Shown here in pieces: positions 1,424-19,635 of a DNA stretch of 20,274 bases (positions within the stretch are counted from its first letter, which is position 1; each line of letters starts with the position of its first letter). A program made the translations under genes and the position numbers. Under the pieces are notes generated by a model. It saw only the letters and a list, made by a program, of their open reading frames with translations, searched no databases and was not told where the DNA came from. Source of the DNA: a virus; IMG/VR virus record IMGVR_UViG_3300009175_001437, positions 1 through 20,274 of that record. One strand, given 5' to 3'.

Positions 1424-1842
1424 GGCTGCACGATTAATAATTCATTACCTGACCAGTTTCTTACATCCGAATGCACCCAGCTGACATTATCCTCGACGCA
1501 AGTAATCCCAAGTTCGCGCCAATGCTCCCGGATGTATTGCCTGACTTCGGCTGCTGACACCGTGAATAGTTTGTCGGATGCCCTTCCATGTGCATGTTGA
1601 GAAGTGAAACTGAATAAAGTTGTTTCCGGAGTCCTGATTCCAGACCAGTTCCGGGTTCCTCCATCCCACCAGTTATTGATTGTGACTGGGCCAAACTGAT
1701 CCCTGAGCTTTTGATCAGCTGTGATCAGCCGTTTGTCCAATAGTCCAATAAGGATATGAGGGGTTGACTCAAATTTCAAATACAACTCTTTGGGAATGTA
1801 TTCATCCAAATTGAGGTTAGTCGAAAGTTTAATTCTTTGCAT
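1420..1842 (-). CDS. M15-family peptidase, probable endolysin
   Basis: A 140-residue protein with both signature motifs of zinc-dependent M15 (D,D- or L,D-) peptidases of the PF08291 type. SQHAHGRASD at residues 81-90 supplies His83 and Asp90, and SWVHSDVR at 121-128 supplies His124 as third zinc ligand; Glu117 is a candidate general base. These enzymes cut peptide cross-links of peptidoglycan. There is no signal peptide, as expected for an endolysin released by a holin. It overlaps the upstream holin-like gene by 14 nt and shares ATGA with the downstream membrane protein gene, forming a compact lysis cassette. It is a stand-alone catalytic domain without a wall-binding domain. The exact bond cleaved cannot be told from the sequence. 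Confidence 0.88.
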   Translation of the reverse strand: MQRIKLSTNLNLDEYIPKELYLKFESTPHILIGLLDKRLITADQKLRDQFGPVTINNWWDGGTRNWSGIRTPETTLFSFTSQHAHGRASDKLFTVSAAEVRQYIREHWRELGITCVEDNVSWVHSDVRNWSGNELLIVQP

Positions 1843-2043: not shown

Positions 2044-2080
2044 CAAACCTAGGTGAATGAGATATCCAACCAAAGGACAG
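2044..2080 (-). promoter_or_regulatory. Late promoter P5 (lysis unit)
   Basis: On the minus strand: CCTGTCCTTTG, then 19 nt, then TAGGTTTG. This is the best match of the five to the Bacteroidetes consensus (TTTG at -33 and TAnnTTTG at -7). The predicted start is about 2037, just upstream of the holin-like ATG at 2029. Confidence 0.85.
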
Positions 2081-2085
2081 GTTTA

Positions 2086-3987
2086 CTACACTTTGAACCC
2101 TTTTACCTGTGTAGTTCCAATCCTATCTATAAAGAGTTCGCAGCTCATTTCTTCAATCAGGAATTCACCCTCACGGGTCCGGTACTTACTGCAAATATTG
2201 TAGATCACATGCCGAAGCACATTAACCGGCAGATCGAAATCTCCAGAAACAGCCAGCCGGTTCGACCAGAAACGATTCCAGTTTTTCCAGTAAAGAGGGA
2301 GAATCCCGGTATCTGCTTTTTCATATTCGAAGCAGAAATTTGCATTTTGGACTCCACCGGAATTGTTAGCCTTATTAATCATCAGGCGTGGCGAAAAGGC
2401 CTGTGTTTTTGCCTTCCAGGTGTTCATGTTACCCTGTTGGTTAACCAGTGTGAGCTGATCGTTACCATAGCAGCTGGACCACGAAGTTTTGATTTCTTCC
2501 ACTTCTTCCCGGCCAAACTCGTGCCAGCCGTTTTGAAGGCCGATTGAGATCTCCTCCCAGCCTAACACATCGGTGGTGTCTGAGGCCATAGTCGATCCAT
2601 TAACTTTCTCCTGGGTAATCCATTTATACTGATAGAAAGTATTGTTCGAACTCATGAGCCGGATTTCACCTTCTACCGGACTTGCTATTGCCCATATTCC
2701 CGGCCAGTCGGCAACCGGAGCCTTGATATCTACTCTTCGGTCACTCAGATCATTAAAACGTTCAGAAAAAACCAGATCATTCGAGTCATGCTCCCTGCTA
2801 AATTTTAAGGCTACACTTTTTTGCTCCCCTATTTCCCATACACCTAAGAAATACTCATCCAGATCAATTGCGGGACCAGTTAATAGCTTTTCCCTGGAAA
2901 GGATATTAACGGTATTATCGGGTAAAAAGTGAAAGCAAACGTTGGTCAGGTTTTGGGTGGATAGGATCAAATCGCCAACCTTCATCTTTGGAAGGTGGTT
3001 TATGGGTGTGACAATATAGTCATAAGACCTAGAGTAACTGTACAGTTTCACCCCTACTGAATGAGGCATATTGACCAGTATTATATTTCCTGATTCACTG
3101 ATTCCGACAACCTGATCCTGATACAATAATTCTCCGGTTTGCAGGTACTGGGTCAGGGTGATGTCAAAATTGTTGTAAATACAAAGGTTCCGAAGCTGGG
3201 CATCTTCATTCAGAAAATTAATGCCGATATGAAAGTTGGTATCTTTCAAGGCCTCCCTTATCACATAGTTTAGGAAAAGGAAAGGAGTAACAACAGTCAC
3301 TTTACCCGAGTCATAAGTGTTGTGTTTCTCTGTCAAAACTTGTAAGTCTATCTGAGATTCTTCCATCTTGATGTAAGTTCCCAGAAACAGCTGATTGACC
3401 TTACAACCAGTTGTCTTATTAAACAGGTAGCTCATCACCTGCGTGTCATAAGTTTCTCCCGTTGCCTGTAATCCCTTACCTGGAACATTATCCCAAACAG
3501 TACGCTTGATGATTAATCCTTTATCGGTAAAAAAGCCGTGGTTCACAATCGGGAATGCACAATAACAATGCTGATCTGGATTGTAATTTGGACTGCCCAC
3601 CCAATCTATCTCCTGGGAGAATACCGGGATATCCAGCAGATCGCGCTGCTGTTCCAGTTCGCCCAGTACCCCGACCTGGTCAATCAGGGAGGCTTCGTAA
3701 CTGGTAGCTGAAGCATTGGTAATAGTAAGAGTCCCGGCCATGAGAAGCACACCACCAAAACGGATTTCAAAGCCCGGGAATTTCTGGTTGGAGTTTCTTC
3801 TGTATTTTGCAAAGCGCTCCACAAAGCCAAATAAGGCACGGGTGTATTCATTAATTTGAAAGGTAATCCCAAGACCAAAGCTTCCTGGTATCTTATCAAA
3901 AGCACAAACCGGACTTTTCCATGTCAATTGCATGGAAAAGTCCACAGTCAGAGGTATGTTATTTCCGTTTAGGGTAAGGGTCAACAT
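2086..3987 (-). CDS. Tail protein, possible baseplate or tail-tip component (633 aa)
   Basis: A 633-residue soluble, beta-rich protein starting 'MLTLTLNGNNIPLTVDFSMQ' and containing the block 'KIPGSFGLGITFQINEYTRA' near residues 32-51. I associate this N-terminal pattern with uncharacterised structural proteins of Bacteroidetes phages, but I cannot name a family. There is no signal peptide or membrane segment. It lies after the fibre genes and directly before the lysis cassette, with 50 nt to the preceding 154-residue gene. Size, composition and location favour a tail-tip, hub or baseplate part. An alternative is a minor appendage protein. The ATG at 3987 is the natural start. Confidence 0.6.
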   Translation of the reverse strand: MLTLTLNGNNIPLTVDFSMQLTWKSPVCAFDKIPGSFGLGITFQINEYTRALFGFVERFAKYRRNSNQKFPGFEIRFGGVLLMAGTLTITNASATSYEASLIDQVGVLGELEQQRDLLDIPVFSQEIDWVGSPNYNPDQHCYCAFPIVNHGFFTDKGLIIKRTVWDNVPGKGLQATGETYDTQVMSYLFNKTTGCKVNQLFLGTYIKMEESQIDLQVLTEKHNTYDSGKVTVVTPFLFLNYVIREALKDTNFHIGINFLNEDAQLRNLCIYNNFDITLTQYLQTGELLYQDQVVGISESGNIILVNMPHSVGVKLYSYSRSYDYIVTPINHLPKMKVGDLILSTQNLTNVCFHFLPDNTVNILSREKLLTGPAIDLDEYFLGVWEIGEQKSVALKFSREHDSNDLVFSERFNDLSDRRVDIKAPVADWPGIWAIASPVEGEIRLMSSNNTFYQYKWITQEKVNGSTMASDTTDVLGWEEISIGLQNGWHEFGREEVEEIKTSWSSCYGNDQLTLVNQQGNMNTWKAKTQAFSPRLMINKANNSGGVQNANFCFEYEKADTGILPLYWKNWNRFWSNRLAVSGDFDLPVNVLRHVIYNICSKYRTREGEFLIEEMSCELFIDRIGTTQVKGFKV

Positions 3988-4037
3988 AGTTCCAAATTCC
4001 AGGTTTCAAATTCCACGCAACTCTCACTCACCTTTAC

Positions 4038-4502
4038 CTAAACAAAATAGCTCAGCACTTCGCCGGTGGAGACATCTGTTGGTTTCTTTTCAAAGTCTTT
4101 TTCCTCAATCTTCTCGGTATGAAACTCCACCTCGATTTCTTCATTCTGAATGGCCTCGTACCTTTGGTTGTAATCCATGTTAGCTTTTGTCCAGGCAGCT
4201 GCTTTGGGCCATAAAAGAAGCACATGATTACCAATGGCCACGTCGTTGAGAACTTCTCCGTCTTTTAGCTCAAACTCCTTTGCCTTCTTTTGCTTGAGCT
4301 CACGAAACTCTTCGGCTAGTTCATCAATGTTTTCCGGTTTGCAGAATTTCAGGGCTTCTTCGGTCTTTTCCTGGATGCTTTTCAAGAGGCGAACATCACG
4401 GCCCAGGGTAATTGACTTTTTAAAGTCTTTGATCCCTTTCAGTTGTGATAAACCATTGGCGATAAGGATAACTTCCTTTCGCCTGATCGATAGTTTTTTC
4501 AT
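4038..4502 (-). CDS. Helical charged protein of unknown function (154 aa)
   Basis: A soluble, strongly charged protein (Lys/Glu rich), probably mostly alpha-helical, beginning 'MKKLSIRRKEVILIANGLSQ'. The opening is reminiscent of small helical phage proteins that sit near tail genes, but no family can be assigned with confidence. The central part (about residues 45-80) has coiled-coil-like heptad character. It follows the 92-residue gene by 14 nt and precedes the 633-residue tail protein, all in the unit expressed from late promoter P4. It may be an assembly factor or chaperone for the large downstream protein; this is inference from size and position. Confidence 0.6.
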   Translation of the reverse strand: MKKLSIRRKEVILIANGLSQLKGIKDFKKSITLGRDVRLLKSIQEKTEEALKFCKPENIDELAEEFRELKQKKAKEFELKDGEVLNDVAIGNHVLLLWPKAAAWTKANMDYNQRYEAIQNEEIEVEFHTEKIEEKDFEKKPTDVSTGEVLSYFV

Positions 4503-4516
4503 CTGGGTTCTTGCTA

Positions 4517-4795
4517 TTAAAGGGTTTCAATTTCAGAAAGAATGGCTTTGAGTTTGGTCGTTACTGCTGTAACAAGAGTTGTTGTAGCAGCAATCGATTC
4601 CACATTGTTGAAATTGACATTGTTACGCCCGCTCTGGCGGTCAATTGAGATACTTACCGATGAATCACCGTTTTCTGATATTGGAACATGACAGCTGATA
4701 TCGCTGTTGGATACTGATACATTGATGTTCTTTTCAGAAACAACACACACACCAGATAAGCTGTTTGGCGTGAAGGTTTTTAAGCTACTAAACAT
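4517..4795 (-). CDS. Small protein of unknown function (92 aa)
   Basis: First gene of the P4 unit. It is rich in Ser, Asn, Val and Thr, with a predicted beta-strand N-terminal two thirds (containing 'NINVSVSNSDISCHVPIS') and an amphipathic C-terminal helix ('LVTAVTTKLKAILSEIETL'). No signal peptide or membrane segment. I do not recognise it. It lies just after the fibre-tip gene and before the 154-residue gene, so a small structural or fibre-associated role is plausible. The start ATG 4795 lies about 24 nt from the predicted transcription start. The conspicuous late promoter in front of it supports a real gene. Confidence 0.6.
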   Translation of the reverse strand: MFSSLKTFTPNSLSGVCVVSEKNINVSVSNSDISCHVPISENGDSSVSISIDRQSGRNNVNFNNVESIAATTTLVTAVTTKLKAILSEIETL

Positions 4796-4825
4796 GATTT
4801 TTACTTTTTAGAATTAAACATGGAT

Positions 4826-4862
4826 CAAAAATGTGGCTTTACCTCAAGGGCAGAAAGGACAG
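4826..4862 (-). promoter_or_regulatory. Late promoter P4
   Basis: On the minus strand: CTGTCCTTTC, 19 nt, CATTTTTG (first base of TAnnTTTG replaced by C). The predicted start is near 4819, ahead of the ATG at 4795. The upstream box begins immediately at the stop codon of the FISUMP-like gene. Confidence 0.78.
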
Positions 4863-4864
4863 TA

Positions 4865-5551
4865 TTAAAAGGAACGGATTGCACGAACGTTACGGATAAA
4901 AGTGTACCTGCTTTCATTTGCTCCAGTCTGAACACCGGTTGATAAATTTTGAGTCCAGGCTTCTGATGCGCTATATTCTGTTGATGACCAGTAGGCAATC
5001 GTGCTGCCAAATCCCGCATTAATGGTCACCCTGTTCAGATACAGCTTGTTTAATTCATCTTTACTGGGAAGATACCAACCGGAATATCCACCTGAAGAAT
5101 AACTCGCACATAACTTTGCAGCATAGGTTCCTGCTCCATATTTGGTCGTAATTATGCTTGTGTTTGAACTTCCTGCTCCCATTACGGATGAAGTTCCCAA
5201 ATTCTGAGTGGTGGGTGAATTTTGCCAATATGTAGACCCCTGATCACTTGTTGCAACGATCAGTCCATGAGTTTGTCCGGCAACATAACCGGAATCCCCA
5301 CTTACAAAAATATAGGCGATTACGCCTCCCTGGTAACTGCTTCCTACTGCCAGAGCATTACTTACTAATTCATTCTGCGAAGGGCACCTGGTACTACCGG
5401 TTGTTGATCCGGATATCGTAACCTGGTACCTTGCCAAAATCTGTGTACAATCCATTGTTAAAAAATCATTGGTACCGGGAGTGATCCCTGATTTTGGGGT
5501 AAAGTTCAAACGCAAAAAATTCTCAGTTACTAATCTGTAATCACCTGCCAT
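4865..5551 (-). CDS. FISUMP/DUF1566 (C-type-lectin-like) fibre-tip protein
   Basis: A 228-residue protein whose C-terminal half carries the hallmarks of the FISUMP/DUF1566 (Lcl_C) fold: 'GGVIAYIF' at 75-82, 'HGLIVA' at 105-110 region (residues 95-100), 'GWYLPSKDELNKLYLN' at 158-173, 'YWSSTEY' at 187-193, 'AW' at 198-199 and the closing 'NVRAIRSF' at 221-228. This fold is a C-type-lectin-like binding domain and in other systems is a target of diversity-generating retroelements. Its ATG overlaps the stop of the 816-residue fibre gene by 11 nt, so the two are coupled, and it is probably a receptor-binding tip or adhesin mounted on the fibre. No reverse transcriptase or template repeat is in the window, so active diversification is not shown. 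Confidence 0.85.
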   Translation of the reverse strand: MAGDYRLVTENFLRLNFTPKSGITPGTNDFLTMDCTQILARYQVTISGSTTGSTRCPSQNELVSNALAVGSSYQGGVIAYIFVSGDSGYVAGQTHGLIVATSDQGSTYWQNSPTTQNLGTSSVMGAGSSNTSIITTKYGAGTYAAKLCASYSSGGYSGWYLPSKDELNKLYLNRVTINAGFGSTIAYWSSTEYSASEAWTQNLSTGVQTGANESRYTFIRNVRAIRSF

Positions 5552-7991
5552 TTGATCGTGCTATTTCGAGTTCCTTAATCCGTGCTTTCAAATCCATTAT
5601 CTCCATTTTCATTGCTACAACTTTTTCGTCTTCCTGCTGAATGGCTTTGGTCAGCAATCCCAGATGATTACCGAAGTTGTGCGATTTCTGATCGATGCCT
5701 GAAAGCCAGGGATGGGTATCCTCAGCAATAAACCCGATGCCAAATGACCCATTGGATTTTAGATTATACCGCTTAATATCAACATTACAAAGAAACCCCA
5801 ACGCATCGATATTAAAGTCTGTGATATTATTCTTTAATGCTCTTGATGAACCGCGGTAAACTTCTGATCCTGTTATTGTGGATGATGCATTGATTGTTCC
5901 TGTAACAGTCAGAGCTGCGGTGGCAAAGGCGTTTGATGAACTTCCGTTAATGGGTGCATACGAATGTGTGTGGGTCGTGATAAGTCCTGTGAGAACATAT
6001 TCAACAACTGCTTTTGTCATGGATACGTAAGGACTTTCATTGTACAGAGAAACTGGAAGACATCCGGCGGCAGGAGTCGTACCATTAATCTGTATTCCTC
6101 CTCTTACTGCGGATCCTGCCAAGGGTAATGTATAAACTCCACCCATAGCTACCCAAGACCTAACTCCGGCTGACGTTGATGATAACACGTAACCGCTGGT
6201 TCCGGGATTTCCAAGCGTTGGTTCGTAGCTGTGTGTATGCGAGCTGATCGTTCCGGTCAGCACCGCTTCGACCTGCGCTTTTGTGATCGAAGTGAGATAT
6301 CCCGCACTTGTCCATGGTGTACCAATTCCCCAGTTGGAACCTGTCCAGTATAGGCTTCTGCCCGAATAACTTCCATCCAGAGAAACGGGTATATATACAT
6401 CGGAATGACTCTGTATCGTATGTGAGAAAGTTCCAAGGGTTAAATCACCTCTCAGATATTGCTGATTTGTTCCTGTTGTTATAGCAGCTTGAATCCCTGA
6501 ATCAACAAGTGTTTTATTTGACCAATATCCGCTCCAGTAAAGTAGTATCTGACCATTACTTAGTCCTGAGAGAAAGGTATCTGAGTGCGTTCCTATGGAA
6601 TGTGACGGCAAGGATGTCAGATAACCCATCCCTGTCCAGGGTGTCCCGGTCACATAGGTATTGGTATCGTAACTAATCACCCCTGCTGTTGACTTTACCA
6701 GTCCTGTGCCTGATAGGGTTGCCTGGTATCCGGAATGGGTATGACTGGTCAGCGAATACAGTCCTGCATGGTTTCCCCACCCAAAAGCTGTATTCCAGTT
6801 GGAGGAGTTATCTGAAAGTATTGTGTAAACTCCCGAAGAAGCCCCACGCAGCATGATTCCCTGGCTTGTAAAGTCTCCATCGACCAAAACATCAGCATGC
6901 GATGTTTGTGAGGTCAGGTAACCCATCGAAGTCCAGGGTGTTCCGGTTACATATCCCATGCCTGTCCATGGAGTTCCTGATACGTAAGTTGTGGTATCTA
7001 ATGTCCAGGTATCGGCTGCCGTTTTCTTCAGCAAACCGGAGGTTCCGGCCAGCGCTGCGATAGCCGTTAGATCTGCATCCAATGGCTGATAAACTCCCAA
7101 GTGGTTATGACTCGTTAAGGAATAACCTGAAAGATCGTGGGAATGAGTACTGATCACACCAGTCAGAACGGCTTCCACCATTGGTTTTGTGATTCCAGTC
7201 AGATACCCCATACCAGTCCATGGTGTCCCGGTCACATAGGTATTTGTATCGTAACTTATCACCCCTGCTGTTGATTTTACCAGTCCGGTGCCGGATAGTG
7301 TTGACTGGTATCCTGAATGGGTATGACTAGTCAGCGAATATAGTCCGGCATGGTTTCCCCAGCCAAAAGCTGTATTCCAGTTAGCTGAGTTATCTGAAAG
7401 TATTGAGTAAACACCGGAAGTGGCCCCACGGAGCATGATTCCCTGGCTTGTAAAGTCTCCATCAACCAATACATCTGCATGTGATGTTTGGGAGGTCAGA
7501 TAACCCATACTCGTCCATGGTGTACCGGTTACATATCCCATGCCCGTCCATGGTGTTCCTGATACATATGTTGTGGTGTCTAATGCCCAGGTATCGGCTG
7601 CAGTTTTCTTCAGCAAACCGGAGGTTCCGGCCAGCGCTGCGATAGCCGTGAGATCAGCATCCAATGGCTGATATACTCCCGAGTGGTTATGCACAGCTGT
7701 AGCATAATAACTACCATGTTGTCCGTCCAAAAGATCAGCATTAAGATTGGTTACTACGTTCGTGTTACTCATAACACCTCCCGATAACAATAGATAAGGA
7801 TGCGAATGGTTATAGGCAGCCACATTAACACCGATATCAACCGCTGTTAATAGTCTTGTATCTGCTGTAGCACCTATTTTCTGATACAAACCATCCATCT
7901 TAGCGGAGAAACCAACGAATCCGGACCCCGGATCATTAAGGTTTATTACCGCTAAGATGTCAAGTTGTGCAAGCTGTTTTCTTGAAGCCAT
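5541..7991 (-). CDS. Tail fibre with internal duplication and S74 chaperone domain
   Basis: An 816-residue trimeric-fibre-like protein. The N-terminus (about 1-60) probably attaches to the tail. The shaft has short repeats of the type GTPWT[GS]MGY[LV]T and eight HxH motifs (His pairs at 62/64, 101/103, 223/225, 283/285, 295/297, 417/419, 585/587, 674/676), as in metal-binding phage fibres. Residues 105-265 and 299-459 are a near-identical duplication. The C-terminus (about 714-810), with 'SSRALKNNI' at 715-723, 'GFIAEDTHPWL' and a final coiled coil, is an S74 intramolecular chaperone, which in the family directs trimerisation and then cuts itself off at a Ser in that first motif. It follows the 360-residue fibre gene by 10 nt and is coupled to the FISUMP gene. 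It is likely a host-recognition fibre. Confidence 0.92.
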   Translation of the reverse strand: MASRKQLAQLDILAVINLNDPGSGFVGFSAKMDGLYQKIGATADTRLLTAVDIGVNVAAYNHSHPYLLLSGGVMSNTNVVTNLNADLLDGQHGSYYATAVHNHSGVYQPLDADLTAIAALAGTSGLLKKTAADTWALDTTTYVSGTPWTGMGYVTGTPWTSMGYLTSQTSHADVLVDGDFTSQGIMLRGATSGVYSILSDNSANWNTAFGWGNHAGLYSLTSHTHSGYQSTLSGTGLVKSTAGVISYDTNTYVTGTPWTGMGYLTGITKPMVEAVLTGVISTHSHDLSGYSLTSHNHLGVYQPLDADLTAIAALAGTSGLLKKTAADTWTLDTTTYVSGTPWTGMGYVTGTPWTSMGYLTSQTSHADVLVDGDFTSQGIMLRGASSGVYTILSDNSSNWNTAFGWGNHAGLYSLTSHTHSGYQATLSGTGLVKSTAGVISYDTNTYVTGTPWTGMGYLTSLPSHSIGTHSDTFLSGLSNGQILLYWSGYWSNKTLVDSGIQAAITTGTNQQYLRGDLTLGTFSHTIQSHSDVYIPVSLDGSYSGRSLYWTGSNWGIGTPWTSAGYLTSITKAQVEAVLTGTISSHTHSYEPTLGNPGTSGYVLSSTSAGVRSWVAMGGVYTLPLAGSAVRGGIQINGTTPAAGCLPVSLYNESPYVSMTKAVVEYVLTGLITTHTHSYAPINGSSSNAFATAALTVTGTINASSTITGSEVYRGSSRALKNNITDFNIDALGFLCNVDIKRYNLKSNGSFGIGFIAEDTHPWLSGIDQKSHNFGNHLGLLTKAIQQEDEKVVAMKMEIMDLKARIKELEIARSNGR
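6615..7097 (-). repeat. Long direct repeat, copy 2, in tail fibre gene
   Basis: Encodes residues 299-459 of the fibre and matches copy 1. Differences in the encoded protein are A/T, T/S, S/T, A/S and S/A at equivalent positions. This points to a recent duplication or ongoing gene conversion lengthening the shaft. Confidence 0.9.
7197..7679 (-). repeat. Long direct repeat, copy 1, in tail fibre gene
   Basis: Encodes residues 105-265 of the 816-residue fibre. Repeated 582 nt later at 6615-7097 with very high nucleotide identity, including silent positions, with only about five amino-acid differences in 161. Confidence 0.9.
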
Positions 7992-8001
7992 AATCTTTAT
8001 T

Positions 8002-9084
8002 TTAGCCCATGATTACTACCGTGTATTGACCGGCCGTAGGGGCCACATTGAAGTTGAAAGTGGTGACGTTAACACTGGTGTCTATAATCTCACATTCCAC
8101 GGCATCAAATGGAGCTGCAGTTCTTGATATGACCGCAATTGTGGCCATTGTATTAAGTCCATGCGTAACCGGATAAGTCAAAGCTGCACCGTCACCAATT
8201 GTCTGAGTGAATTTACGAACCAGGGATAAGGTTCCGGTCGTACCTAATGCCTGTTTTAATTTCAACGGGGTAACCGCTCTTAAATCATCAGTTCCTGCAG
8301 CAACTTCAGCCGTTGTCGCAATTTCAATGATTCCCTGAGCGGTTTCTGAAGCTGAAATAATGTCTGGTATGTTTTTATTGACAGTTGTCCAGTGCGCTGC
8401 CAGAGTTGGATTATCCTGTTTGGCAATAACCATATCACCAATCTGAACATCTTCAGCAAAGAATGTTCCGGCAGTGGTAACCACATAAGTCCAACCTGTT
8501 TTAATCCCTCCAATAGGAGTTGCATCCAAAAGTGGAGCGTTGGCTGCTGCATCATAACCACCTTTGTAGATTAAACTTCCGGAAATCGTTGTATTGATGG
8601 CATTAATCAATTGCAAGACCTTATCCGCAGAGAATAATTCAGTAGTTGCCCCCAGAATAGCAGCATCGTTAATTACCCGATGTTTGGTGGCATCGGCAAT
8701 GTGGGTATCAATCTGGGCATGTGTATTTGTCCCAACTCCGGAAAGATCAGTATGCGCGAGCTGTTGAAAGTTTGCCGCCGCGGCTCCTGAAGCCCGAAGG
8801 ACCTGACCGGCTGCCGCTCCGGAGATGGTGTGTTCCGCCCCCAAAGCCAGATTGGTTGCGATTACGTGCGAAGTTGGAGTTCGGGCGTTAGTCATTCTTG
8901 TGTCGGAACTGATTACAAGTGCTTGCCAGGTTGTTCCGTCATAGAAATAAACCAACTTGTCGGTAGTGTTCCAGTAAACTCTACCAGGTGACGGGGTTGG
9001 AGCTGTTGCTAAATTTTCAAGCCTTGCCTGAAGGAGCTGATTTAGAGCCAGGTCTAAATCAATTAAAAACGTCTTTTTTGCCAT
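8002..9084 (-). CDS. Tail fibre/appendage protein (360 aa)
   Basis: A low-complexity, Ala/Thr-rich fibre-like protein. Residues 31-55 ('PSPGRVYWNTTDKLVYFYDG') resemble the short repeats of phage appendage proteins that describe a bound stalk. Residues 246-280 ('SETAQGIIEIATTAEVAAGT' followed by a 'VTPLKLKQAL' end) match the common phage tail-fibre repeat. The C-terminal 75 residues ('YPVTHGLNTMATIAVI' and on) form a predicted beta domain, possibly the binding or trimerising end. It is separated by 6 nt from the 242-residue gene upstream and by 10 nt from the 816-residue fibre downstream, so all are one unit. It may be a connector or fibre subunit between tail tip and the long fibre. Confidence 0.85.
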   Translation of the reverse strand: MAKKTFLIDLDLALNQLLQARLENLATAPTPSPGRVYWNTTDKLVYFYDGTTWQALVISSDTRMTNARTPTSHVIATNLALGAEHTISGAAAGQVLRASGAAAANFQQLAHTDLSGVGTNTHAQIDTHIADATKHRVINDAAILGATTELFSADKVLQLINAINTTISGSLIYKGGYDAAANAPLLDATPIGGIKTGWTYVVTTAGTFFAEDVQIGDMVIAKQDNPTLAAHWTTVNKNIPDIISASETAQGIIEIATTAEVAAGTDDLRAVTPLKLKQALGTTGTLSLVRKFTQTIGDGAALTYPVTHGLNTMATIAVISRTAAPFDAVECEIIDTSVNVTTFNFNVAPTAGQYTVVIMG

Positions 9085-9090
9085 TTGATT

Positions 9091-10979: not shown

Positions 10980-11042
10980 TGAAAAGGTGTTTTAAGCGTA
11001 AAAACAGAAATGAGAAATCAATAAATCCATTAATATCTAAAT

Positions 11043-11079
11043 CAAATGTATGAGGATAGGGAAAGGCAGGAAAGGACAA
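11043..11079 (-). promoter_or_regulatory. Late promoter P3 (tail tip and fibre unit)
   Basis: On the minus strand: TTGTCCTTTC, 19 nt, TACATTTG. The -7 element is a perfect match to TAnnTTTG. The flank upstream (CCTGTCGAAC) resembles that of P1 (CCAGTCGAAA). The predicted start is near 11036, ahead of ATG 10979. It sits about 20 nt after the tape measure stop codon. Confidence 0.85.
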
Positions 11080-11101
11080 GTTCGACAGGCTCTATTACCA
11101 C

Positions 11102-14100
11102 CTATCTTTTCAATCCGCTGTTGGTAGTTTTCTGGTATTGTTCCCGTTTGCGCTCATAAGCTTCGATAGAAATAGATGGGTTCCAATTTTTCAGATCAGA
11201 CACAGCCAAAGCCAAGGCTGATAAAATCTCATTTTGGTTTTGGTCGGTTGGATTCACACCGGATAGTTTACTAAGCAAACTGTTTAGTGCTGAACTGGAA
11301 ATAGAATTTGCATCAGTGGTGTAACCACCCGAAGAAAAACCTTTGGATTTACTGGCCTGATATGCTCCCGGAGTAATGGTATATCTGGTTTGCCTCATGT
11401 TCTCCAACCCAGCCACCATCATGGCTATCTGCGGATTGCGAAGCATATCGGCAGGGATAACATATTCCCCTTTGTGAACTATGCCGGCAGGTTCATTCTT
11501 TCCTCCCGCGCCTGTATATCCACCAGCGGCATAACCTTTGGGTTGTGAGAAATTGGCAATTGACTGAGCCACGATCGAAGCGATACTGCCAATGGCAGAA
11601 GCGGTATTAATGGCTACCCAAGGCATCCCCAGTGTTAATGGAAATGTGGCTACTGCTTTGGCGTTGGCAATGGCGGTATTAAAGATGACCTGGCCTATTG
11701 CAGCTGCTTGCTGAAAAAGGAACATTGCTTTTCCCATAGCGGTTTCTTTTCCAGCCAGTTCAGCCAAACCACCAAACAATGAATTTGCAGCAGAGAAAAC
11801 AGCATCACCAATTTCCTGTTTCTTGGCCAGTTCATCAAGTTTGATTTGAACAAGTTTATCCGAAAGACTGCGCTCAGCCACAGCAATTTTAGCGGCATTA
11901 TCATTGGCATCAATCAAATCCTGCTGATATTCTGCCTGGGCCATATCACGCTTTGCTGCAAACTCTTCCTCGTCCGTTTTCGCTTTCGCCTGACGAATAA
12001 GTGCTGCATCCATGATCCGTTGCTCATTTTCTGCCTTTTCCAGGTCAGACATTATTTTCAGGTGAGCGGTTGTCTTTTCCTGGATGGTTTTGTTGATGGT
12101 ATCATTAAGGGCTACTTCCTGATCTTTCAGATCCGTTTTATCCAACAGTTGTTTTTTTAGTCCAGCCAGTTCATCTGCCCAACGGTTTTCCTCAATGGCC
12201 TTCTGCTTTTTGATGCCCTCTGCAAGGTTTTCCACCTTGGCATCGGCCAGTTCTTTATCTGTCTTTTCCAACAGGTCTTTGACTGTTTTTTCAGCATCTA
12301 CCTGCAATTGCAAAGACTGGGAATAAGCCGCTTCATATTCTTTGCTTCCCTTCTCATAGATAGCCATTTTAGCCTGCTGAAAATTGATCTCTTCAATCAG
12401 CATGTCGGCTTTGAACTGATCTTCTGATCCTTTTGTTTCTAAATGGCTTTTCTTGATCATTGCCATTTTTGCCTCATGCTGCGCTGTGGCATTATCAATG
12501 AGCGTTTTCAGCCTTTCTTTTTCCTTCTTTTCAGCTTCTGAATCCTGTTTGTCATCCGCTTTTCCTTCTTTTTTTGTTCCAAGTTCATTGAGCCGATCAA
12601 TTTCCTTTTGGATAGATTCAATCGATTTATTACGGGCGGTTATCTCAGCTTCAGTCGATCGTGGCATTTTGTTGGCCGTTTCCAGCTCCAGCTCTTTTGC
12701 CCGGACAAGGTCAAGAATAACACCAGTACCAGCGCCTCCGTCCACTCCGGATTTGGAATCTTCTTCCTTTTGTTTCCTGGTTACCGATAGCAGTTTTTCT
12801 TTCTGCAGTATGAGGGCTTTCTGCTGCTCAGTCATATTTGAAAAAGCTGTATTGGCATTGCGTCCCTGGGCTACAGCAGCATTTCCAAAGGATAGCAGGC
12901 TGTTGCCCAGAGCTTGCCAAAAGGTTACATCGGCACCTTTCCCGGATGACAGATCAAGAAGCTCTTTTTCGATATCGATCAGTTTCTCTGATGCTGCCTG
13001 AACAAATGCTTTTCTTTCCAGTGCCTTGATATAAATATTAATGGAATCGGTAGCCTCTTTGGTATAGACATTTTCCAACTGGATATTTCCAAGGGTAACA
13101 GGCGAAAGTTTATGCATTTCTGCAATGGCTTGAAGACGCTCTGCATCTGAAAGTTTCTTGTTTCGTGCAGTAGCCAGTAAATCTTCGATGGCCAGCTTTT
13201 CCTCCACGATCCTTTTTTTAGCCTCCAGATTCAGTTCGTTCATCATTAACTGCGTTTTTTGTGCAGCTGTCATCTGCCCGGAATAAAAGTAGAGCGCGGT
13301 ACCTGCTGCAACGACTAACCCGACAAACAGGCCTATCGGGTTTGCAGCCATGGCAGCGCTGAAGGCCCGGAACTGGATCGAAGCCACGGTCAGGTTACCA
13401 GATAGCAGGGCAACACCTGCATTATAAAGTGAAATAGCAGCAAACTGGGCGGTAAAGGCAGCTGATTGAAGCCACCCTGCGACAATACCTAAGAGTGTTT
13501 CTTTATTCTTCCTCGCTTCCCACATGGTTGCCAGTTTGGCTGCAATGGTATAGGCAGTAAGCGAATAAATGAGTGATAGGATCAAAACCTTATGCCGGGA
13601 TATAAAATCAATGGAGATGGTTAATGCCTTAATGAAATAGGTCAATCCACTGGTACTTACCTGGAGCGCCGGAGCCAGTTTTTCACCCAGTTCAATACTC
13701 ATTACATTAAGCCGGTTTTTGGCCTGGGCAAGTTTTGCATTATTATTACCGGTATTAATGATTGCCTGTTCAATGGCCACATTGGTCCCTGTTACTGCCT
13801 TCTCATATTGCCTGAATTCTTTCACATTCTGAATCAAGGTATTGGCAACGTTGATGTTCTCAAGGCCAAACATTTTAAGTTGTTCCTGTGGGGTAAGAAC
13901 TTTTTTAGCCAGATTCTCCAAGGCTGTTCCCATCCCAACAATGGCCGGGTTGGTATCATCAGCCCCCAGTTGCAGATGGAGTAACATTCCACGTAGTCCT
14001 CGACCTGCAATTTCTGGTTGTGAAAATCGGGGTGCAAGGGTTTCCAGTGTTGCTGTAAGGGTTTCAATGGAGAGTCCGGCCATGGAAGCAGTGGTTCCTG

Positions 14101-14841
14101 CTTTTTCAAACCCTATGGTCAGGTATGGTATTTCTCCGGCTCCTTCCTTTGAACCAGCTCCCAGAACATTAATGATCCGGCGGGCCTGGTCTGCTGACAC
14201 ATTATACTGGTTCATCACCATAGTAAGCCCTGAAATGGCAGGTTGCAGTTCAATCTTAGCTGCGTTAGCCAGTATGATAGCTTCCTTGGTAACATCGACC
14301 AGGGCCTCTTTATTCTTAAGTAGTTCAGGCCGGGCTGAACCTACCTTGGTAAAAGCATCAACGATTTGCTGAGCCGATTGGGTAACACGTATTCCCCCTT
14401 CCAGGGTGTCTGTTGACATCTTCTTGGCCGTTTCTCCCAGCCATTCCAAATCTTTTCCTGCCAGACCGGTCAAAGCAGACAAGTTATCCAGACGCTCTTC
14501 AAAATCATTATAGGTTTGAATAATTTGTTTGACTCCCATCACCAGAGCTACCGAAGAAGCCAAAAATGCGGTAACCATCGAGAAATAGTCATTAAACATC
14601 CTGCCGATGTTACGCATCGACCATTTGCTTTCAATCTGCCCAATGTCTGCCCGGTGCTGATCGATGATGGTTTTAAGCTGTTTGATTTTGGATGCTTCGG
14701 CTACATATTCTTTGGACCCGATGGTCATTCGTGCCTGGGTGTTGATGGTTTTGTTCATTTCGGCACGGATGCTTGCAATGTCATTGGTGACTGCTGTCCG
14801 TTGATGTAAAGGTTGATTCGCCTGTTGTAGGAGGTTGCCAT
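11102..14841 (-). CDS. Tail tape measure protein, TP901 family, with N-terminal frameshift
   Basis: The main frame gives about 1250 residues: a helical start, the TP901-type tape measure core (including 'FEERLDNLSALTGLAGKDLE' and 'RFSQPEIAGRGLRGMLLHLQ'), hydrophobic segments in the middle (about 415-530), long Glu/Lys-rich coiled coils (about 720-1010) and the common C-terminal motif 'GGKNEPAGIVHKGEYVIPA'. It sets tail length and threads the tail tube. The natural N-terminus starts at ATG 14841 (MATSYNRRINLYINGQQ), but that frame continues to a stop at 14755; the main frame takes over at 14791 (VTNDIASIRAEMNK). One base is missing between 14792 and 14791. The open frame itself can be extended to a TTG at 14866, but that start yields an implausible N-terminus. 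It may be a real mutation or a sequencing error. Confidence 0.9.
14755..14841 (-). pseudogene. Out-of-frame N-terminal codons of the tape measure gene
   Basis: A 28-codon frame (ATG 14841 to TGA 14757-14755) whose first 17 residues, MATSYNRRINLYINGQQ, are a natural-looking tape measure N-terminus. After that it runs out of frame. Joining it to the main frame at 14791 restores a continuous 'INGQQ-VTNDIASIRAEM'. A -1 shift is required and no slippery heptamer is present at the junction. Confidence 0.75.
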
Positions 14842-14853
14842 GGTTGAAGATTA

Positions 14854-14889
14854 AAGCCCCACCCAAACCCTCCCCATAAGGGAGGGCTT
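14854..14889. repeat. REP-like GC-rich palindrome
   Basis: Two overlapping inverted repeats. CCCTCCC at 14868-14874 pairs with GGGAGGG at 14880-14886 (7 bp, loop CATAA), and AAGCCC at 14854-14859 pairs with GGGCTT at 14884-14889. The composition resembles a palindrome I recall as scattered in intergenic regions of Bacteroidetes genomes. It lies in the leader of the tape measure mRNA, between P2 and ATG 14841. Confidence 0.6.
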
Positions 14890-14916
14890 AAAGAATGGCT
14901 GCGATTGTTTAGGCTT

Positions 14917-14953
14917 CAAATATCAGGTTGGCTAACAGTAGTGGAAAGGACAG
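14917..14953 (-). promoter_or_regulatory. Late promoter P2 (tape measure)
   Basis: On the minus strand: CTGTCCTTTC, 19 nt, GATATTTG (first base of TAnnTTTG replaced by G). The predicted start is near 14910, about 70 nt before ATG 14841, with the REP-like palindrome inside the leader. Confidence 0.78.
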
Positions 14954-15017
14954 GAAAAAGTGGATTTTCTTTACATGTTCATATAACTTGTAAGAAGAAG
15001 GGCAAAATGTTTACAGA

Positions 15018-15551
15018 TTATTTGATTCTCATTCGGGTGGCATTTACCGCAGCATCAGCATTAATATTGGCCAGTTCATCGGCCAGGACAGGAACATTTC
15101 TATCCAGTACAGGATTGAACCATTCAACTGCCACACGTTCGCGAATTCTGGCAGGATACCTGGCGGTTCGGGTAACTAATCCATTTCCGTTTGATTGATA
15201 TCCACGACCAACACCTTTATGAACAAATACTCCATGACGTTCAAAGGAGAATCCAACGTAATTGGCCAAACCAAATTCTTTCCCAACTTTGCTCATGATA
15301 CTGGCTGCTAATTTCTTTTCGGTTTGTTTGCCACCATCGCGTAAAACAAATGATTCTGTTTTCCCATCTGAGAACCATCTGGCACTTCCTCGAAGAGAGC
15401 TGCGAACCATTGGAGCCCACTTCTGGACCAGTGCATTCTGCTCTTGAATGGTTTGGGGATCAGGTTGGCTACCGGTTGATTGGGAAACGTATCTTGATGC
15501 TTTTCCTTTAAAGTTTCCGTTGGTTCCGTAATTGTTCTTAAGATATCCCAT
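15018..15551 (-). CDS. Probable tail-completion/neck protein (177 aa)
   Basis: A basic, soluble 177-residue protein with 'YVGFSFERHGVFVHKGVGRG' near the middle and 'EWFNPVLDRNVPVLADELAN' near the C-terminus. I associate this pattern with uncharacterised proteins lying just before the tape measure gene in Bacteroidetes prophages, but cannot name a family. Position between the 168-residue protein and the tape measure gene suggests a head-tail joining, tail-completion or tail-tube-associated part. It starts at ATG 15551, 10 nt after the preceding stop. Late promoter P2 lies about 65 nt beyond its stop codon. Confidence 0.65.
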   Translation of the reverse strand: MGYLKNNYGTNGNFKGKASRYVSQSTGSQPDPQTIQEQNALVQKWAPMVRSSLRGSARWFSDGKTESFVLRDGGKQTEKKLAASIMSKVGKEFGLANYVGFSFERHGVFVHKGVGRGYQSNGNGLVTRTARYPARIRERVAVEWFNPVLDRNVPVLADELANINADAAVNATRMRIK

Positions 15552-15561
15552 TCTGTTCGAT

Positions 15562-16068
15562 TTACAGGATTAACCATTTATCCGGGTTCACTTCATTACT
15601 GCGTGGTGAAGTGAGAACATAAGTGTATCGGATTCCGTAGTTTCCATCAGATTCATTAACCAGGAGTGATGCTTCAACGCTTGAGAAATCAAAATCACGA
15701 ATAGCCGGAGCCAGTGGATTTCGTTTATCAGCTTTCATCCGGACCAGAAGTTCATCCCCGATTTCTTCCATGTTTTCCCAGGCTGATTGGATGGCATCAA
15801 AGTCAGTCTGATCGGAAACATGATCGATCAGCATAAAAGCGCCACGACGGTTTTTAAGCAGATTATCACTTTTATCATCGGTGAAGTCATAGCCATACCC
15901 TTCAAGAATGAGAAAAGGGTGCTTCACATCCGTCCGGTTAATACCACCCAGCACTTCATCGACTTCCATCCGGAAGAAATGTTTTTCGCTGTCCGTGTGA
16001 CCGATATCCTTATGCAACCTTGCAAGGTTTTCGAAATAAGAAACGAGCTGAGAGAATTTTGCTGCCAT
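15562..16068 (-). CDS. Probable neck/tail-terminator protein (168 aa)
   Basis: A soluble mixed alpha/beta protein with a conserved-looking core: 'HPFLILEGYGYDFTDDKSDN', 'RRGAFMLIDHVSDQTDFDAI', 'RMKADK', 'FDFSSVEASLLVNESDGNYG' and a final 'NPDKWLIL'. I associate this type of protein with the head-tail connection of Bacteroidetes phages, although its function is not established. Size and location between the connector-type genes and the tape measure would fit a tail terminator. It lies 26 nt after the 267-residue gene and 10 nt before the 177-residue gene. No signal peptide or membrane segment. Start ATG 16068. Confidence 0.65.
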   Translation of the reverse strand: MAAKFSQLVSYFENLARLHKDIGHTDSEKHFFRMEVDEVLGGINRTDVKHPFLILEGYGYDFTDDKSDNLLKNRRGAFMLIDHVSDQTDFDAIQSAWENMEEIGDELLVRMKADKRNPLAPAIRDFDFSSVEASLLVNESDGNYGIRYTYVLTSPRSNEVNPDKWLIL

Positions 16069-16094
16069 AACTTGGAGTGATAAATGGGTGTTTA

Positions 16095-16898
16095 CTATTT
16101 ATGGGAACGGGCATTTTCTTTGTATTTTCGGGTCATATAGGCAAAGATTGTATTGACCGGCTTTGCCGCCCAAATTTCATCATGAATGATATCATCACCC
16201 ACGAAATTTTGAAAAACCTTGATCCAGATATTGGGATCTCTTTTGATTTCTTGTTGAGCGATATCCCCATCTGAAACTGTCGGAATGGTTGTCAATTCTA
16301 CAATGGAGTGAAAAATCAGGGGATAAGCCATTGCTAGCCACTCATGCATTAACTGGTAATTCAGAACAATAGCCTCGCGGATATTCTTATCAATTATTCC
16401 AATTTGAGGATGGCGGCTTTGTATAAGCTTTTCATCAAAATGTTCATCTTTTCTCAAGTAAAGGGAAGCGATGAATTTATTCAAATCCGTTTCATCGCCT
16501 GACTGCTGGTAATTGGCAAAATAAGTATCTGCAAAAATGAACTGGCCGAAGGTAATTCCTTTAAGTTTGCCTTCCGGAGCACACAAAATCATTCCCTTTC
16601 GATAGATGGTAATCTTGCTGATTATAAATTCATGAAAAGGAGACTGATCGCCAATAAACTCAAATACTTCCATGAGTTTGTATCGTTCAAAATCCGACAA
16701 TTTATTGAGGATCCCTTTTCCCAATCCTAACATTGCTTTCAGAAAATTTATGTCTGAGATTGCCGATTTGTAAAGGCAAGCAATTGCAATCAGTTGCTTT
16801 TGTGTCACATCACCCCAATTTTGTGGTACGTTACTGTCAACCTTTCGAGTGAATTGCAGCCAACCAATAGGACGATAATTTACTTCAATTTTTAACAT
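16095..16898 (-). CDS. Phage protein of unknown function in head-neck module (267 aa)
   Basis: A soluble, mainly helical protein beginning 'MLKIEVNYRPIGWLQFTRKV' and ending with a basic 'MTRKYKENARSHK' tail. The 'NWGDVTQKQLIAIACL' segment (about residues 27-42) and the C-terminal 'VNTIFAYMTRKYKE' recall a type found between connector and tail genes in Bacteroidetes prophages, but no family name can be given. Its ATG overlaps the end of the DUF6712-type gene (7 nt), indicating tight coupling. It is not a convincing major capsid protein. A connector, assembly-chaperone or tail-assembly role is possible. Confidence 0.6.
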   Translation of the reverse strand: MLKIEVNYRPIGWLQFTRKVDSNVPQNWGDVTQKQLIAIACLYKSAISDINFLKAMLGLGKGILNKLSDFERYKLMEVFEFIGDQSPFHEFIISKITIYRKGMILCAPEGKLKGITFGQFIFADTYFANYQQSGDETDLNKFIASLYLRKDEHFDEKLIQSRHPQIGIIDKNIREAIVLNYQLMHEWLAMAYPLIFHSIVELTTIPTVSDGDIAQQEIKRDPNIWIKVFQNFVGDDIIHDEIWAAKPVNTIFAYMTRKYKENARSHK

Positions 16899-17899
16899 GC
16901 CCAGAATGTTTTTTTGTCTGTATTGGTCCGTCGCAGTATATTCCCTGTTTGTCCGCAGTAGGCTGGCCAGTCATTTGCATTTACAATGAGGTAACTTTTT
17001 AGCTGCTCCTGATAATTTTGTCCAATGCCTTTGTTGCGTTTAGCAAGAAAATTAATCCGTTCGCTTTCTGAAGGCTGTTTGTTTGTCAATAGATTATTAT
17101 AGGCGTCAATACTTTCGAAGTATAAGCCTTTCTCCGTAAGATCTGCTCCGCTTTCTTCCATTAAAAGCGCCGTTGCCAGATAGGCTGTGGTTTTTTGAAT
17201 ATATGGAAGGATTGCTGTCACTTTTGTTGATGGTATTTTCTTCACCATTTCCAATTTTATTTCATTGAAGATAGCTTCGCCCAGAACCGGTTTGATGTCC
17301 AGATCTTCAACCAGTTGCATGGGGGATTTCAGCCGAAGGAAAGTCAGCCGACTGTGATTAATGAAAATGATTGCGTTGAAAGTACTGGTATCCGGGATAA
17401 AGGATGATTTCAATAAGGTCCATCCATCTGAATCAATAAATGATTTGAAATTGACCGGTTCTGCTTCGGACTTCTTGATTTCCATCTCGAGATAAAAAAG
17501 GATTTCATCCAATCCATTGAACCCAGTTGTCTTGAAATACTCTTTCAATTCAACTTCCTGGTATTTAAAAAGGCTTTTTACCTTTTCGTTTTCGGTTCGT
17601 TTGAACCCTCCATCGGAGATGGTGGCATTCAATACCTGAAACCCGGACCAATAGGTCAGGTGAATCAGTGTCCGTTGCACCAGTGACAAAAGCTCGCTGA
17701 AAAGAATATTCTGCCCTACCATTGGAGTTTCTGACGGACTATCATAGAAATCCTGCAATTCTTTGAATAATCCGGGTCCAAGCAATGGTCTCAAGTAAGC
17801 AGTTTCTGCATTCTGGATATGGGGTTTTAGCCTGTTAAAGTCGGTACCTGCACCAACTGCCAGATATTGTTTGATTTCTTCGATGGTTTTGAATAGCAT
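16892..17899 (-). CDS. DUF6712-type protein, probable head-tail connector
   Basis: A 335-residue helical protein that begins 'MLFKTIEEIKQYLAVGAGTD' followed by 'ETAYLRPLLGPGLFKEL', a pattern I associate with DUF6712, seen in Bacteroidetes phages and prophages next to portal genes. A second related-looking segment from about residue 160 on ('GWTLLKSSFIPDTSTFNAII', then 'PVLGEAIFNEI') suggests two tandem helical domains. Its ATG shares a base with the stop of the portal-like gene (TAATG at 17901-17897), so translation is coupled. Head-tail connector is the likely role, inferred from position and helical architecture. DUF6712 membership is by recall, not by search. Confidence 0.72.
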   Translation of the reverse strand: MLFKTIEEIKQYLAVGAGTDFNRLKPHIQNAETAYLRPLLGPGLFKELQDFYDSPSETPMVGQNILFSELLSLVQRTLIHLTYWSGFQVLNATISDGGFKRTENEKVKSLFKYQEVELKEYFKTTGFNGLDEILFYLEMEIKKSEAEPVNFKSFIDSDGWTLLKSSFIPDTSTFNAIIFINHSRLTFLRLKSPMQLVEDLDIKPVLGEAIFNEIKLEMVKKIPSTKVTAILPYIQKTTAYLATALLMEESGADLTEKGLYFESIDAYNNLLTNKQPSESERINFLAKRNKGIGQNYQEQLKSYLIVNANDWPAYCGQTGNILRRTNTDKKTFWAC

Positions 17900-19260
17900 T
17901 ACGATAAGGTTTTAGTTGTTCCGGCACCAGAATCGAGGGTCGTTAGAACGGTATTTCTGAAACGCCATTCTATATTTTCATCTCCACCATTGTATCGGTG
18001 TACAATTTCGATAGGATCAAGCATGGTTTGTCGGTCAAGCCAGGCATTTGCTACGTTGATAAGGTAAGCTTCCCTGATATTGCTTCCTCCTGAGTTTCCA
18101 GCATAGGCTCCACCGGGCATCCCCGCTCCCATCACATTTGGATTAACCATGATGGCAAACATGATTTCAGAATTTGCTGCAGCTGAAGTAACCAGGTTCT
18201 GTTCGCTGTTGAGCTTGTTGTTTAGCGGTTCGATAATCCATTTCTCCTCTGCCTTGCCATTCATTGGATTAATCTCGAAGAAAGTAAAGATTGGCTTATC
18301 AGCGTTATCCACCCCGCAAAGATTGGTTTCCACATCATCCATATAATCCTCAATGGCTTTCTTGCGCAGATCGATTGTTGCGAATTCGTTGGCAGGGAAT
18401 TGACGATCCCAGAAAGCATATGGAATCTGGATATGCCATTTCCAGGTAATTTGATTGGTGTACGCTTTTTTCAGGAAAGCCGGTACCATACTTGCAATAT
18501 CTATCCATCCGGCCAGGTAGGCTGCAAACCAAAGGGGCGCGGAATAATACTCGTTATTGCTCCAGGAATCACGAATACACATCACCAGTGATTTTCCGTT
18601 TGTTTTTCCAGCCCAACGGCGACGTTCCAGATCAGCGTAAGGATCATATTCATCCAGAACATCATACACGGTATATTCACCTTCTGATGGTGTATCAGGG
18701 AACCTACCGGATACGATACAATTTTCAACTACTCCATCTTTATTGGCCACGGTCAACCGGCAGTATTTTGAATTGATGGCATTTACTCCAACAATCTGAC
18801 TTCCATCAGAATTGAACAGGAACTCCACAAAAGCAACTCCGAGCTTCAGGTAATCGCGGATTGCTTTTTCCATATATCGTCGCATCACGCGGCTGTTGGC
18901 AAAAATGGTTAATGAAGGATCTTTGGGAGCTTTTAGAAGTTCATTGCCTTTATCATCATAGCCGGTAACAATACAGGGATAAATACCTTGGCCCAAGGTA
19001 AAATTCCGGGTAAAGCGCAAGCCAGTGTTCAGTGTTCCTACCTTGTTGATTATCTCTTCCGCTTTTGAAGGCCAATCGTTGTTTGATCCCCAGCTGGCAA
19101 TTTCGTAATTGCCAATAGTGGTGCGATTCAAATCGATTTTCGCAGGTTTAGGATTCGCTGAGTTTGGCTTATCAGCCGGAACCCCGGTCGTTGCTCCCAT
19201 ATAGCTTCGTCCAGAAGCAAGCAGTGGCACACCTTTAGCATTAAAAATAATATCTGCCAT
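17899..19260 (-). CDS. Phage portal-like protein
   Basis: A 453-residue protein. The segment 'GNYEIASWGSNNDWPSKAEE' (about 49-68) and following 'LNTGLRFTRNFTLGQGIYP' match the N-terminal part of portal proteins found in Bacteroidetes phages, and the C-terminal 'GGSNIREAYLINVANAWLD' resembles the portal region before the barrel. A portal forms the dodecameric DNA-entry vertex that connects to neck proteins. It lies second in the P1 unit and is coupled directly to the DUF6712-type connector gene. The size is at the small end for portals. No adjacent terminase is seen, which is unusual, but the connector next door fits. Start ATG 19260; one nt separates it from the 96-residue gene. Confidence 0.75.
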   Translation of the reverse strand: MADIIFNAKGVPLLASGRSYMGATTGVPADKPNSANPKPAKIDLNRTTIGNYEIASWGSNNDWPSKAEEIINKVGTLNTGLRFTRNFTLGQGIYPCIVTGYDDKGNELLKAPKDPSLTIFANSRVMRRYMEKAIRDYLKLGVAFVEFLFNSDGSQIVGVNAINSKYCRLTVANKDGVVENCIVSGRFPDTPSEGEYTVYDVLDEYDPYADLERRRWAGKTNGKSLVMCIRDSWSNNEYYSAPLWFAAYLAGWIDIASMVPAFLKKAYTNQITWKWHIQIPYAFWDRQFPANEFATIDLRKKAIEDYMDDVETNLCGVDNADKPIFTFFEINPMNGKAEEKWIIEPLNNKLNSEQNLVTSAAANSEIMFAIMVNPNVMGAGMPGGAYAGNSGGSNIREAYLINVANAWLDRQTMLDPIEIVHRYNGGDENIEWRFRNTVLTTLDSGAGTTKTLS

Positions 19261-19261
19261 C

Positions 19262-19552
19262 TTACATTTTTACCTTTATCCCATTATACTCGATCAATGA
19301 ATCAATACTTACAGGAGTGACATGACCACAGGCGTTTCCGTTTTCATCCACCGGAAGAACTCCACGCATCCGGTTTTCTTTCATATTCATTTTTAGTCCG
19401 GTAGCCACTGCCCGGGGTATAAAAACCAGTTCTCCATCTTTCTTTACAAACTTGATTGAAAAGACAATTTGTTTTCCCTGCGGAGTTTCCCTAATCTCCA
19501 GTTCTTTTAGAACAAGGTTTCGGCGTATTGATTCTACTTTTGGTTGAGCCAT
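19262..19552 (-). CDS. Small protein of unknown function ahead of portal gene (96 aa)
   Basis: A soluble basic, beta-rich protein (for example 'GKQIVFSIKFVKKDGELVF' at about 26-44, then 'PRAVATGLKMNMKENRMRGV'). It is the first gene of the P1 unit and is separated from the portal-like gene by a single nt. I do not recognise a family. It could be a small head or packaging-associated factor. The start ATG 19552 follows a leader of about 40 nt from the predicted promoter start. Upstream, a minus-strand terminator separates it from what precedes, so it opens the structural operon. Confidence 0.7.
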   Translation of the reverse strand: MAQPKVESIRRNLVLKELEIRETPQGKQIVFSIKFVKKDGELVFIPRAVATGLKMNMKENRMRGVLPVDENGNACGHVTPVSIDSLIEYNGIKVKM

Positions 19553-19598
19553 TTGATTTTTGATTTATCCGTCAGTTGGCGGATGATGATTAATGAAT

Positions 19599-19635
19599 CA
19601 AATGTAAGTTGCAGGATTATGGGGAGAAAGGACAG
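19599..19635 (-). promoter_or_regulatory. Late promoter P1 (head/neck unit)
   Basis: On the minus strand: CTGTCCTTTC, 19 nt, TACATTTG. The -7 element is a perfect TAnnTTTG. The predicted start is near 19592, about 40 nt before ATG 19552. The upstream flank CCAGTCGAAA resembles that of P3. It lies just behind the terminator at 19676-19704. Confidence 0.88.

Follow-up and report, generated by a model that had tools for sequence, protein, structure and literature searches.

How might the late genes of a tailed phage, dispersed over several operons, be made to fire together? The question is raised by five near-identical sites in a 20,274-base viral record (IMGVR_UViG_3300009175_001437, positions 1 to 20,274; hereafter "the window," meaning this whole stretch), which is probably a fragment and whose gene content, with portal, tape measure, endolysin, a DUF6712 protein, and genes for tail and fibres, is that of the late half of a tailed phage. 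At all five sites, a 9-nt box stands exactly 19 nt from an 8-nt -7 element, and the pattern TGTCCTTTS-N19-nAnnTTTG occurred five times in the window, always on the minus strand, versus 0.01 expected from dinucleotide shuffles. The original prediction, made from the letters of this stretch, had described these five sites and their fixed spacing, and had read TTTC in four of them and TTTG in the one at 2044; both descriptions were correct. A CC that it had noted upstream is present in four window copies (at -11/-10 of the box), but it was found in only 10% of 144 sites of the wider family.

Every copy lies in a short intergenic gap ahead of a gene block, as had also been proposed. Putative late promoter 1 (19599..19634, minus strand; box TGTCCTTTC at 19626-19634, -7 element TACATTTG at 19599-19606) sits in the gap between 19552 and 19900 and heads the head/portal block, consisting of 19262-19552, the portal gene (17899..19260, minus strand), the DUF6712 gene (16892-17899), 16095-16898, 15562-16068, and 15018-15551; in many relatives, orthologous sites precede the same 96-aa gene. 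The 453-aa portal protein served as our query for the lineage, and its name rests on an annotated homologue in Polaribacter phage Leef_1. Putative promoter 2 (14917..14952, minus; box TGTCCTTTC at 14944-14952, -7 element GATATTTG at 14917-14924) occupies the gap between 14866 and 15018, and the first gene behind it encodes the tail tape-measure protein (11102..14866, minus; PHROG tape-measure families, E down to 7e-29). Putative promoter 3 (11043..11078, minus; box TGTCCTTTC at 11070-11078, -7 element TACATTTG at 11043-11050), between 10979 and 11102, heads the tail/fibre block that runs from 10979 down to 4865. In this region, an 816-aa fibre protein (5541-7991, minus) has long, near-identical internal repeats (DLTAIAALAGTSGLLKKTAADTW...), and a tail-region protein (4865-5551, minus; phrog_4245) has a C-terminus that resembles a lectin-type receptor-binding domain. 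Putative promoter 4 (4826..4861, minus; box TGTCCTTTC at 4853-4861, -7 element CATTTTTG at 4826-4833) falls between 4795 and 4865 ahead of 4517-4795, 4038-4502, and 2086-3987, and putative promoter 5 (2044..2079, minus; box TGTCCTTTG at 2071-2079, -7 element TAGGTTTG at 2044-2051) falls between 2029 and 2086 ahead of the lysis block, with 1829-2029, an endolysin-like gene (1420..1842, minus; phrog_894, E 1e-13), and 1109-1423. On the lysis side, the gene at 302-742 (minus) matches DUF6573 (PF20213, E 2e-17).

Using the portal gene as a query, we retrieved 65 viral contigs (29-98% identity), 43 bacterial-genome loci, and six phage records. In the portal-bearing viral contigs, we counted 40 distinct instances of TGTCC lying 28 nt ahead of TAnnTTTG, versus a background of ~1 per offset, and in whole records the exact motif was confined to one strand per record, with no control matches. 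When the records were oriented, TGTCC-N23-TAnnTTTG was found 67 times on the late strand versus once on the opposite strand; a spacing longer by 1 nt gave 10 matches, a spacing shorter by 1 nt gave 0, and a reversed box gave 1. A matrix scan of 80 phage and prophage records yielded 176 late-strand, 3 opposite-strand, and 3 reversed-control sites at score 15, and 146, 0, and 0 at score 19, counts that are not independent, as the matrix was built from strict sites, the training records were included, and close relatives were counted apart. The box-to--7 offset was 28 in ~90% of sites or more, 29 being the next most common. For 147 distinct sites, the median distance from the -7 element to the start codon was 24 nt, and the genes most often behind them were the tape measure (24 sites) and the 96-aa gene before the portal (24 sites), others being tail, terminase-block, lysis, and protease genes. 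The relatives' sites thus precede the same late blocks, almost solely on the late strand and at a fixed spacing, which supports the late-promoter reading of the original prediction. We consider it highly probable that these sites form a class of late promoters with a phage-specific box, at which, judging from their sequence, transcription would start.

Two other origins of the motif were rejected. Chance or general viral noise does not account for it: in an unbiased scan of viral contigs, none of the stretches fetched, among at least 120 listed, had a second matrix site on one strand, and lone sites of this kind are what is expected of chance hits. Nor is the box a piece of the terminator before it. 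Upstream of 48% of the boxes there was a T tract, with at least 5 T among the 8 nt directly before the box, and upstream of 35% a hairpin below -8 kcal/mol, versus 12% in shuffled sequence; together they are probably the terminator of the preceding operon. TGTCC is, however, kept where the T tract, which precedes about half of the boxes, is missing. Beside these results, we observed that assemblies labelled Sulfuricurvum and Candidatus Falkowbacteria (L271 and L293) contained portal genes of the lineage that matched the query at 97% and 60% identity, respectively; these are probably misbinned phage contigs. One metagenome-assembled genome (G047) contained an identical TGTCCTTTGCTTATTTTTATATTATCAATATATTTG four times (C2:76, C3:5, C3:4184, and C5:69681), two of them near contig ends, and these copies probably lie within a repeated mobile element.

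The motif is conserved deep into the lineage. Polaribacter phage Leef_1, a member of the Helgolandviridae with a flavobacterial host (PMC8776804), resembles the window's lineage in its portal (29% identity) and in the order of its head genes, and it has six boxes and a homologue (gp39) of the candidate regulator c15 described below; it differs in its flavobacterial host and in its weaker -7 elements (CATCTTGC, GATATTGC). The six Leef_1 copies of TGTCCTTTT are all forward and all intergenic, in a genome that is only 8.7% intergenic, and the opposite strand has none. Each lies directly ahead of a late gene, several of them immediately after a hairpin and a T run. We found no transcription work on Leef_1 in the literature. 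The spacing also held in a set of 13 loci that were not in the matrix, collected through the portal genes of Leef_1 and gut phage MT835542 with two Leef_1 copies excluded: of the 41 forward TGTCCTT[TA] boxes, 34 were followed at offset 28 by a -7-like element, and within the range of 20 to 39 no other offset had one. The box is unchanged in this branch, whose -7 element is often weak (CAATTTAG, GACTTTTA, GATCTTAG). Reverse-strand boxes in the same set carried a -7-like element at offset 28 in 7 of 12 cases, and from their sequence part of these are probably real reverse-facing promoters. An example is the record of locus L384 (G075), where two boxes lie back to back on opposite strands within one short stretch (18875-18955), an arrangement that suggests divergent late promoters. 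Microcystis phage Mea-Yong924-1 (L376; MZ447863) has the lineage's late boxes with Bacteroidota-like -7 elements at 13088-28730. Its five boxes are accompanied by an extra conserved TTAACACGC-like stretch upstream, and the true host of this phage may be a Bacteroidota that lives alongside the cyanobacterium. Relatives without the box, or without both box and c15, were sought as a negative control, and none were found.

The layout of these sites was compared with that of host promoters. Promoters of the primary sigma factor of Bacteroidota (sigma-ABfr) have TTTG at -33 and TAnnTTTG at -7 (PMC7366714, PMC6847099), and the phage sites resemble them in the -7 element and its register. Across 165 sites anchored on the box alone, with the -7 element disregarded, the -7 register read T.72, A.85, n, n, T.90, T.95, T.75, G.73, that is, the TAnnTTTG of the primary sigma factor, which was present in full in 55 of the 165. 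Unlike sigma-ABfr promoters, the phage sites have lost the -33 TTTG: the tetranucleotide in this register was TTTC at 85 of the 165 sites, TTTT at 29, TTTA at 16, and TTTG at 6, and what they have instead is an invariant TGTCC box at a fixed offset, ahead of late phage genes only. The TGTCC half is more conserved than the TTT and sits upstream of the -33 register, and the box has no obvious palindrome. Elsewhere between the genes of these phages, TAnnTTTG sites had TTG peaks at -23 and -22 (18 each, over a background of ~4), which is the normal -33. From these TTG peaks and the loss of the -33 at box sites, it follows that the same genomes have ordinary promoters elsewhere and a design with the box in place of the -33 at late operons. 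A conserved non-sigma box, at a fixed spacing from the -7 element and ahead of late operons, is the layout of an activator-dependent promoter, and this reading fits because the box occupies the -33 register, in which the host TTTG is nearly absent. Dependence of the box promoters on a phage activator thus appears distinctly likely.

Abundance of the motif in host DNA had been named in advance as an observation that would count against this reading. In 18 prophage-carrying bacterial genomes, TGTCC-N23-TAnnTTTG occurred 89 times and its reversed control 88 times, with many of the former inside prophages of the lineage. Because host genomes show no excess, the box is a phage feature, and a host promoter type was rejected. 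The same result bears on the possibility that the host primary sigma reads the box as a strong -33 element of another kind, with a phage protein being unnecessary. Here, the TTT of the box lies within the -33 register, a full TAnnTTTG accompanies it at the 55 sites mentioned, and the phylum has a loosely defined -33 consensus (PMC7366714). We nonetheless find it quite unlikely, as the pair of box and -7 element is not enriched in the host genomes, these phages have TTG at -22/-23 at their remaining intergenic TAnnTTTG sites, and TGTCC is the better conserved part, kept even where the -7 element has decayed (Leef-type CAnnTTAG, CATCTTGC). Recognition of the box by a host regulator or a host alternative (ECF) sigma factor is highly improbable: while the phages span several Bacteroidota families and their hosts have many ECF sigma factors (PMC7366714), the host genomes lack an excess, the -7 half is of the primary-sigma type, and the box is constant across Bacteroidales hosts and Polaribacter, for which a constant partner is more easily a phage protein.

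The box might instead be the operator of a phage repressor that silences late genes in lysogens. A temperate lifestyle is evident from integrases in many of the records and from prophages in host genomes, and a repressor bound at a box that overlaps the -33 register could exclude polymerase there. Yet a repressor would have no need of a fixed offset to the -7 element, which is 28 in ~90% of sites or more, and it should leave intact the -33 consensus that is lost here, which makes this reading very unlikely. We therefore favor activator-dependent late promoters with c15 as the best candidate activator, an explanation that, taken as a whole, we hold to be fairly likely. Each site would be a late promoter read by host RNA polymerase with the primary Bacteroidota sigma factor, which would keep its -7 contact through TAnnTTTG or a weaker form of it, while the usual -33 TTTG would be replaced by the invariant TGTCC-[TC][TA][TC] box (TGTCCTTT), in and just upstream of that register, at about -38 to -30. 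A phage activator, made before the late genes, would bind the box and recruit or stabilise the holoenzyme, whereby the dispersed late operons would fire together. Where the -7 element is good, there could be some basal activity without the activator.

Which protein might act as this activator? Among 16 box-bearing records, none had a Mor-domain protein (PF08765), none had a match over cut-off to a single-subunit phage RNA polymerase (PF00940), and one had a match to Sigma70 region 4, which overlapped a LuxR match. LuxR-type (GerE) genes of 130-203 aa were found in 7 of the 16 (G005, G012, G019, G023, G028, G030, and G070) and were missing from the other 9, including records of 65-69 kb. On these searches, Mor, LuxR, a sigma factor, and a single-subunit RNA polymerase were all rejected as the regulator.

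Clustering the proteins of full records brought up a family that we call c15, a protein of ~190 aa (about 157-200 aa across the family) that matched no Pfam, PHROG, or NCBIfam family. It is encoded outside the window, where the original prediction had placed a possible phage-encoded activator; the nearest relative has it, as does nearly every box-bearing record covering the region. At first pass it was present in 21 records, essentially all of those holding the whole head module. The gene order is c15-c13a-box-protease, followed by the capsid gene: c15 nearly always lies directly before c13a and is usually the last-but-one gene ahead of the first box, at the early/late border. In most c15 records, the c13a/protease junction has a box, often with a weak -7 element. 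No box was detected in front of c15 itself, and several copies have an ordinary -7 element there instead. Near the small terminase, another conserved gene of ~200 aa (cluster c12; L192 2839-3435) reads like a phospholipase-D-type (HKD) protein; it had no Pfam match, and the Microcystis record names its homologue polyphosphate kinase.

Profile searches found c15 homologues in Leef_1 (gp39, E 1e-10), in Mea-Yong924-1 (E 3e-11), and in two further records (G026; G038, E 8e-16). The copy in MT835542 is weak (E 3e-5), outscores all 2000 shuffles, and has the same gene order. In Mea-Yong924-1, c15 adjoins the primase, far from the head module, and c15 and the five boxes are both retained. A search seeded with c15 only returned 25 loci, and 11 of the 14 new records had the motif, with no control match. 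If the weak MT835542 copy is counted, just three non-structural families of the 31 tested extended across the outgroups: primase, integrase, and c15. A clear c15 was not seen in two box-bearing records, G018 and G029, perhaps because they are fragments, and one query found no c15 in plasmids.

The structural model of c15 (mean pLDDT 87) comprises strand-helix-helix, strand-helix, a long helix, and then helices at 115-125 and 135-145, the invariant residues W133, I138, and R144 lying within or beside these last two. In the model, the C-terminal helices at 115-145 look like a helix-turn-helix. Compared with solved structures in the PDB, c15 gave no significant match (Foldseek E of 0.7 or more, VIA Z under 5), and its N-terminal part modelled alone gave weak KH-like rows with Z of 3.6 or less. 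In a viral structure library, the best match was an uncharacterised 157-aa protein of Leef_1 (E 8e-7), and homology between the two is supported because the model retrieves the Leef_1 protein independently. No structural neighbour of known function is significant, and DNA binding of c15 at the box is inferred. Co-occurrence alone cannot single out c15 among core genes because a box-less relative was not found, and the case for it rests on its early position, its non-structural nature, and its helix-turn-helix-like part. On these grounds, we give c15 a somewhat better than even chance of being the activator of the box promoters; in the model, strands and helices make up its N-terminal part, and its C-terminal part looks like a helix-turn-helix. 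That the activator is phage-encoded but another protein, either a LuxR-type regulator or an unrecognised small early protein, we consider unlikely. A LuxR-type gene is annotated in Leef_1, in addition to the 7 of 16 records above, but more than half of those records have boxes and no such gene, the searches yielded no Mor protein or single-subunit RNA polymerase and only the one sigma match that overlaps LuxR, and c15 alone among the tested non-structural families shares the outgroup distribution of primase and integrase.

By analogy, the replacement of the -33 by a box resembles the T4 MotA box and the Mu C site. The Mu late promoters (lys, I, P, and mom) are under the activator C, whose site adjoins or overlaps a non-consensus -35 (PMC4461284). 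Dispersed late promoters, a single phage activator (here proposed), and a site at a non-consensus -35 are common to both, while the phages studied here differ from Mu in that no Mor/C-family protein was found in the 16 records and c15 falls in no Pfam, PHROG, or NCBIfam family. The box of the Mu C site differs from the TGTCC box. In T4 middle promoters, the MotA box replaces the -35 and the -10 is kept, a mechanism known as sigma appropriation (PMC6755090). The box promoters are alike in having a proposed activator box in place of the -35 with the -10/-7 kept, and unlike in box, phylum, and sigma factor, in serving late rather than middle genes, and in that c15 has no Pfam family match. The literature that we searched contained no description of late gene control for any Bacteroidota phage. 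That c15 founds a new family of late activators, which in a manner like sigma appropriation would take the upstream contact of the primary sigma at the TGTCC box and control the whole virion regulon of the lineage, is a tentative proposal to which we assign slightly less than an even chance.

In the gut and the sea, Bacteroidota phages are abundant, and the sigma factor of their hosts is an unusual one. Gut and marine members seem to turn on their virion genes through matching box promoters and, if true, the c15 reading covers a phage lineage that spans gut, freshwater, and marine hosts. The late regulon and its named candidate activator are directly testable in cultured Leef_1 and in the type-strain prophage of Bacteroides stercorirosoris DSM 26884. 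The box is a marker for late operons and for members of the lineage in fragments, and a promoter/activator pair of their own would serve Bacteroides genetics.
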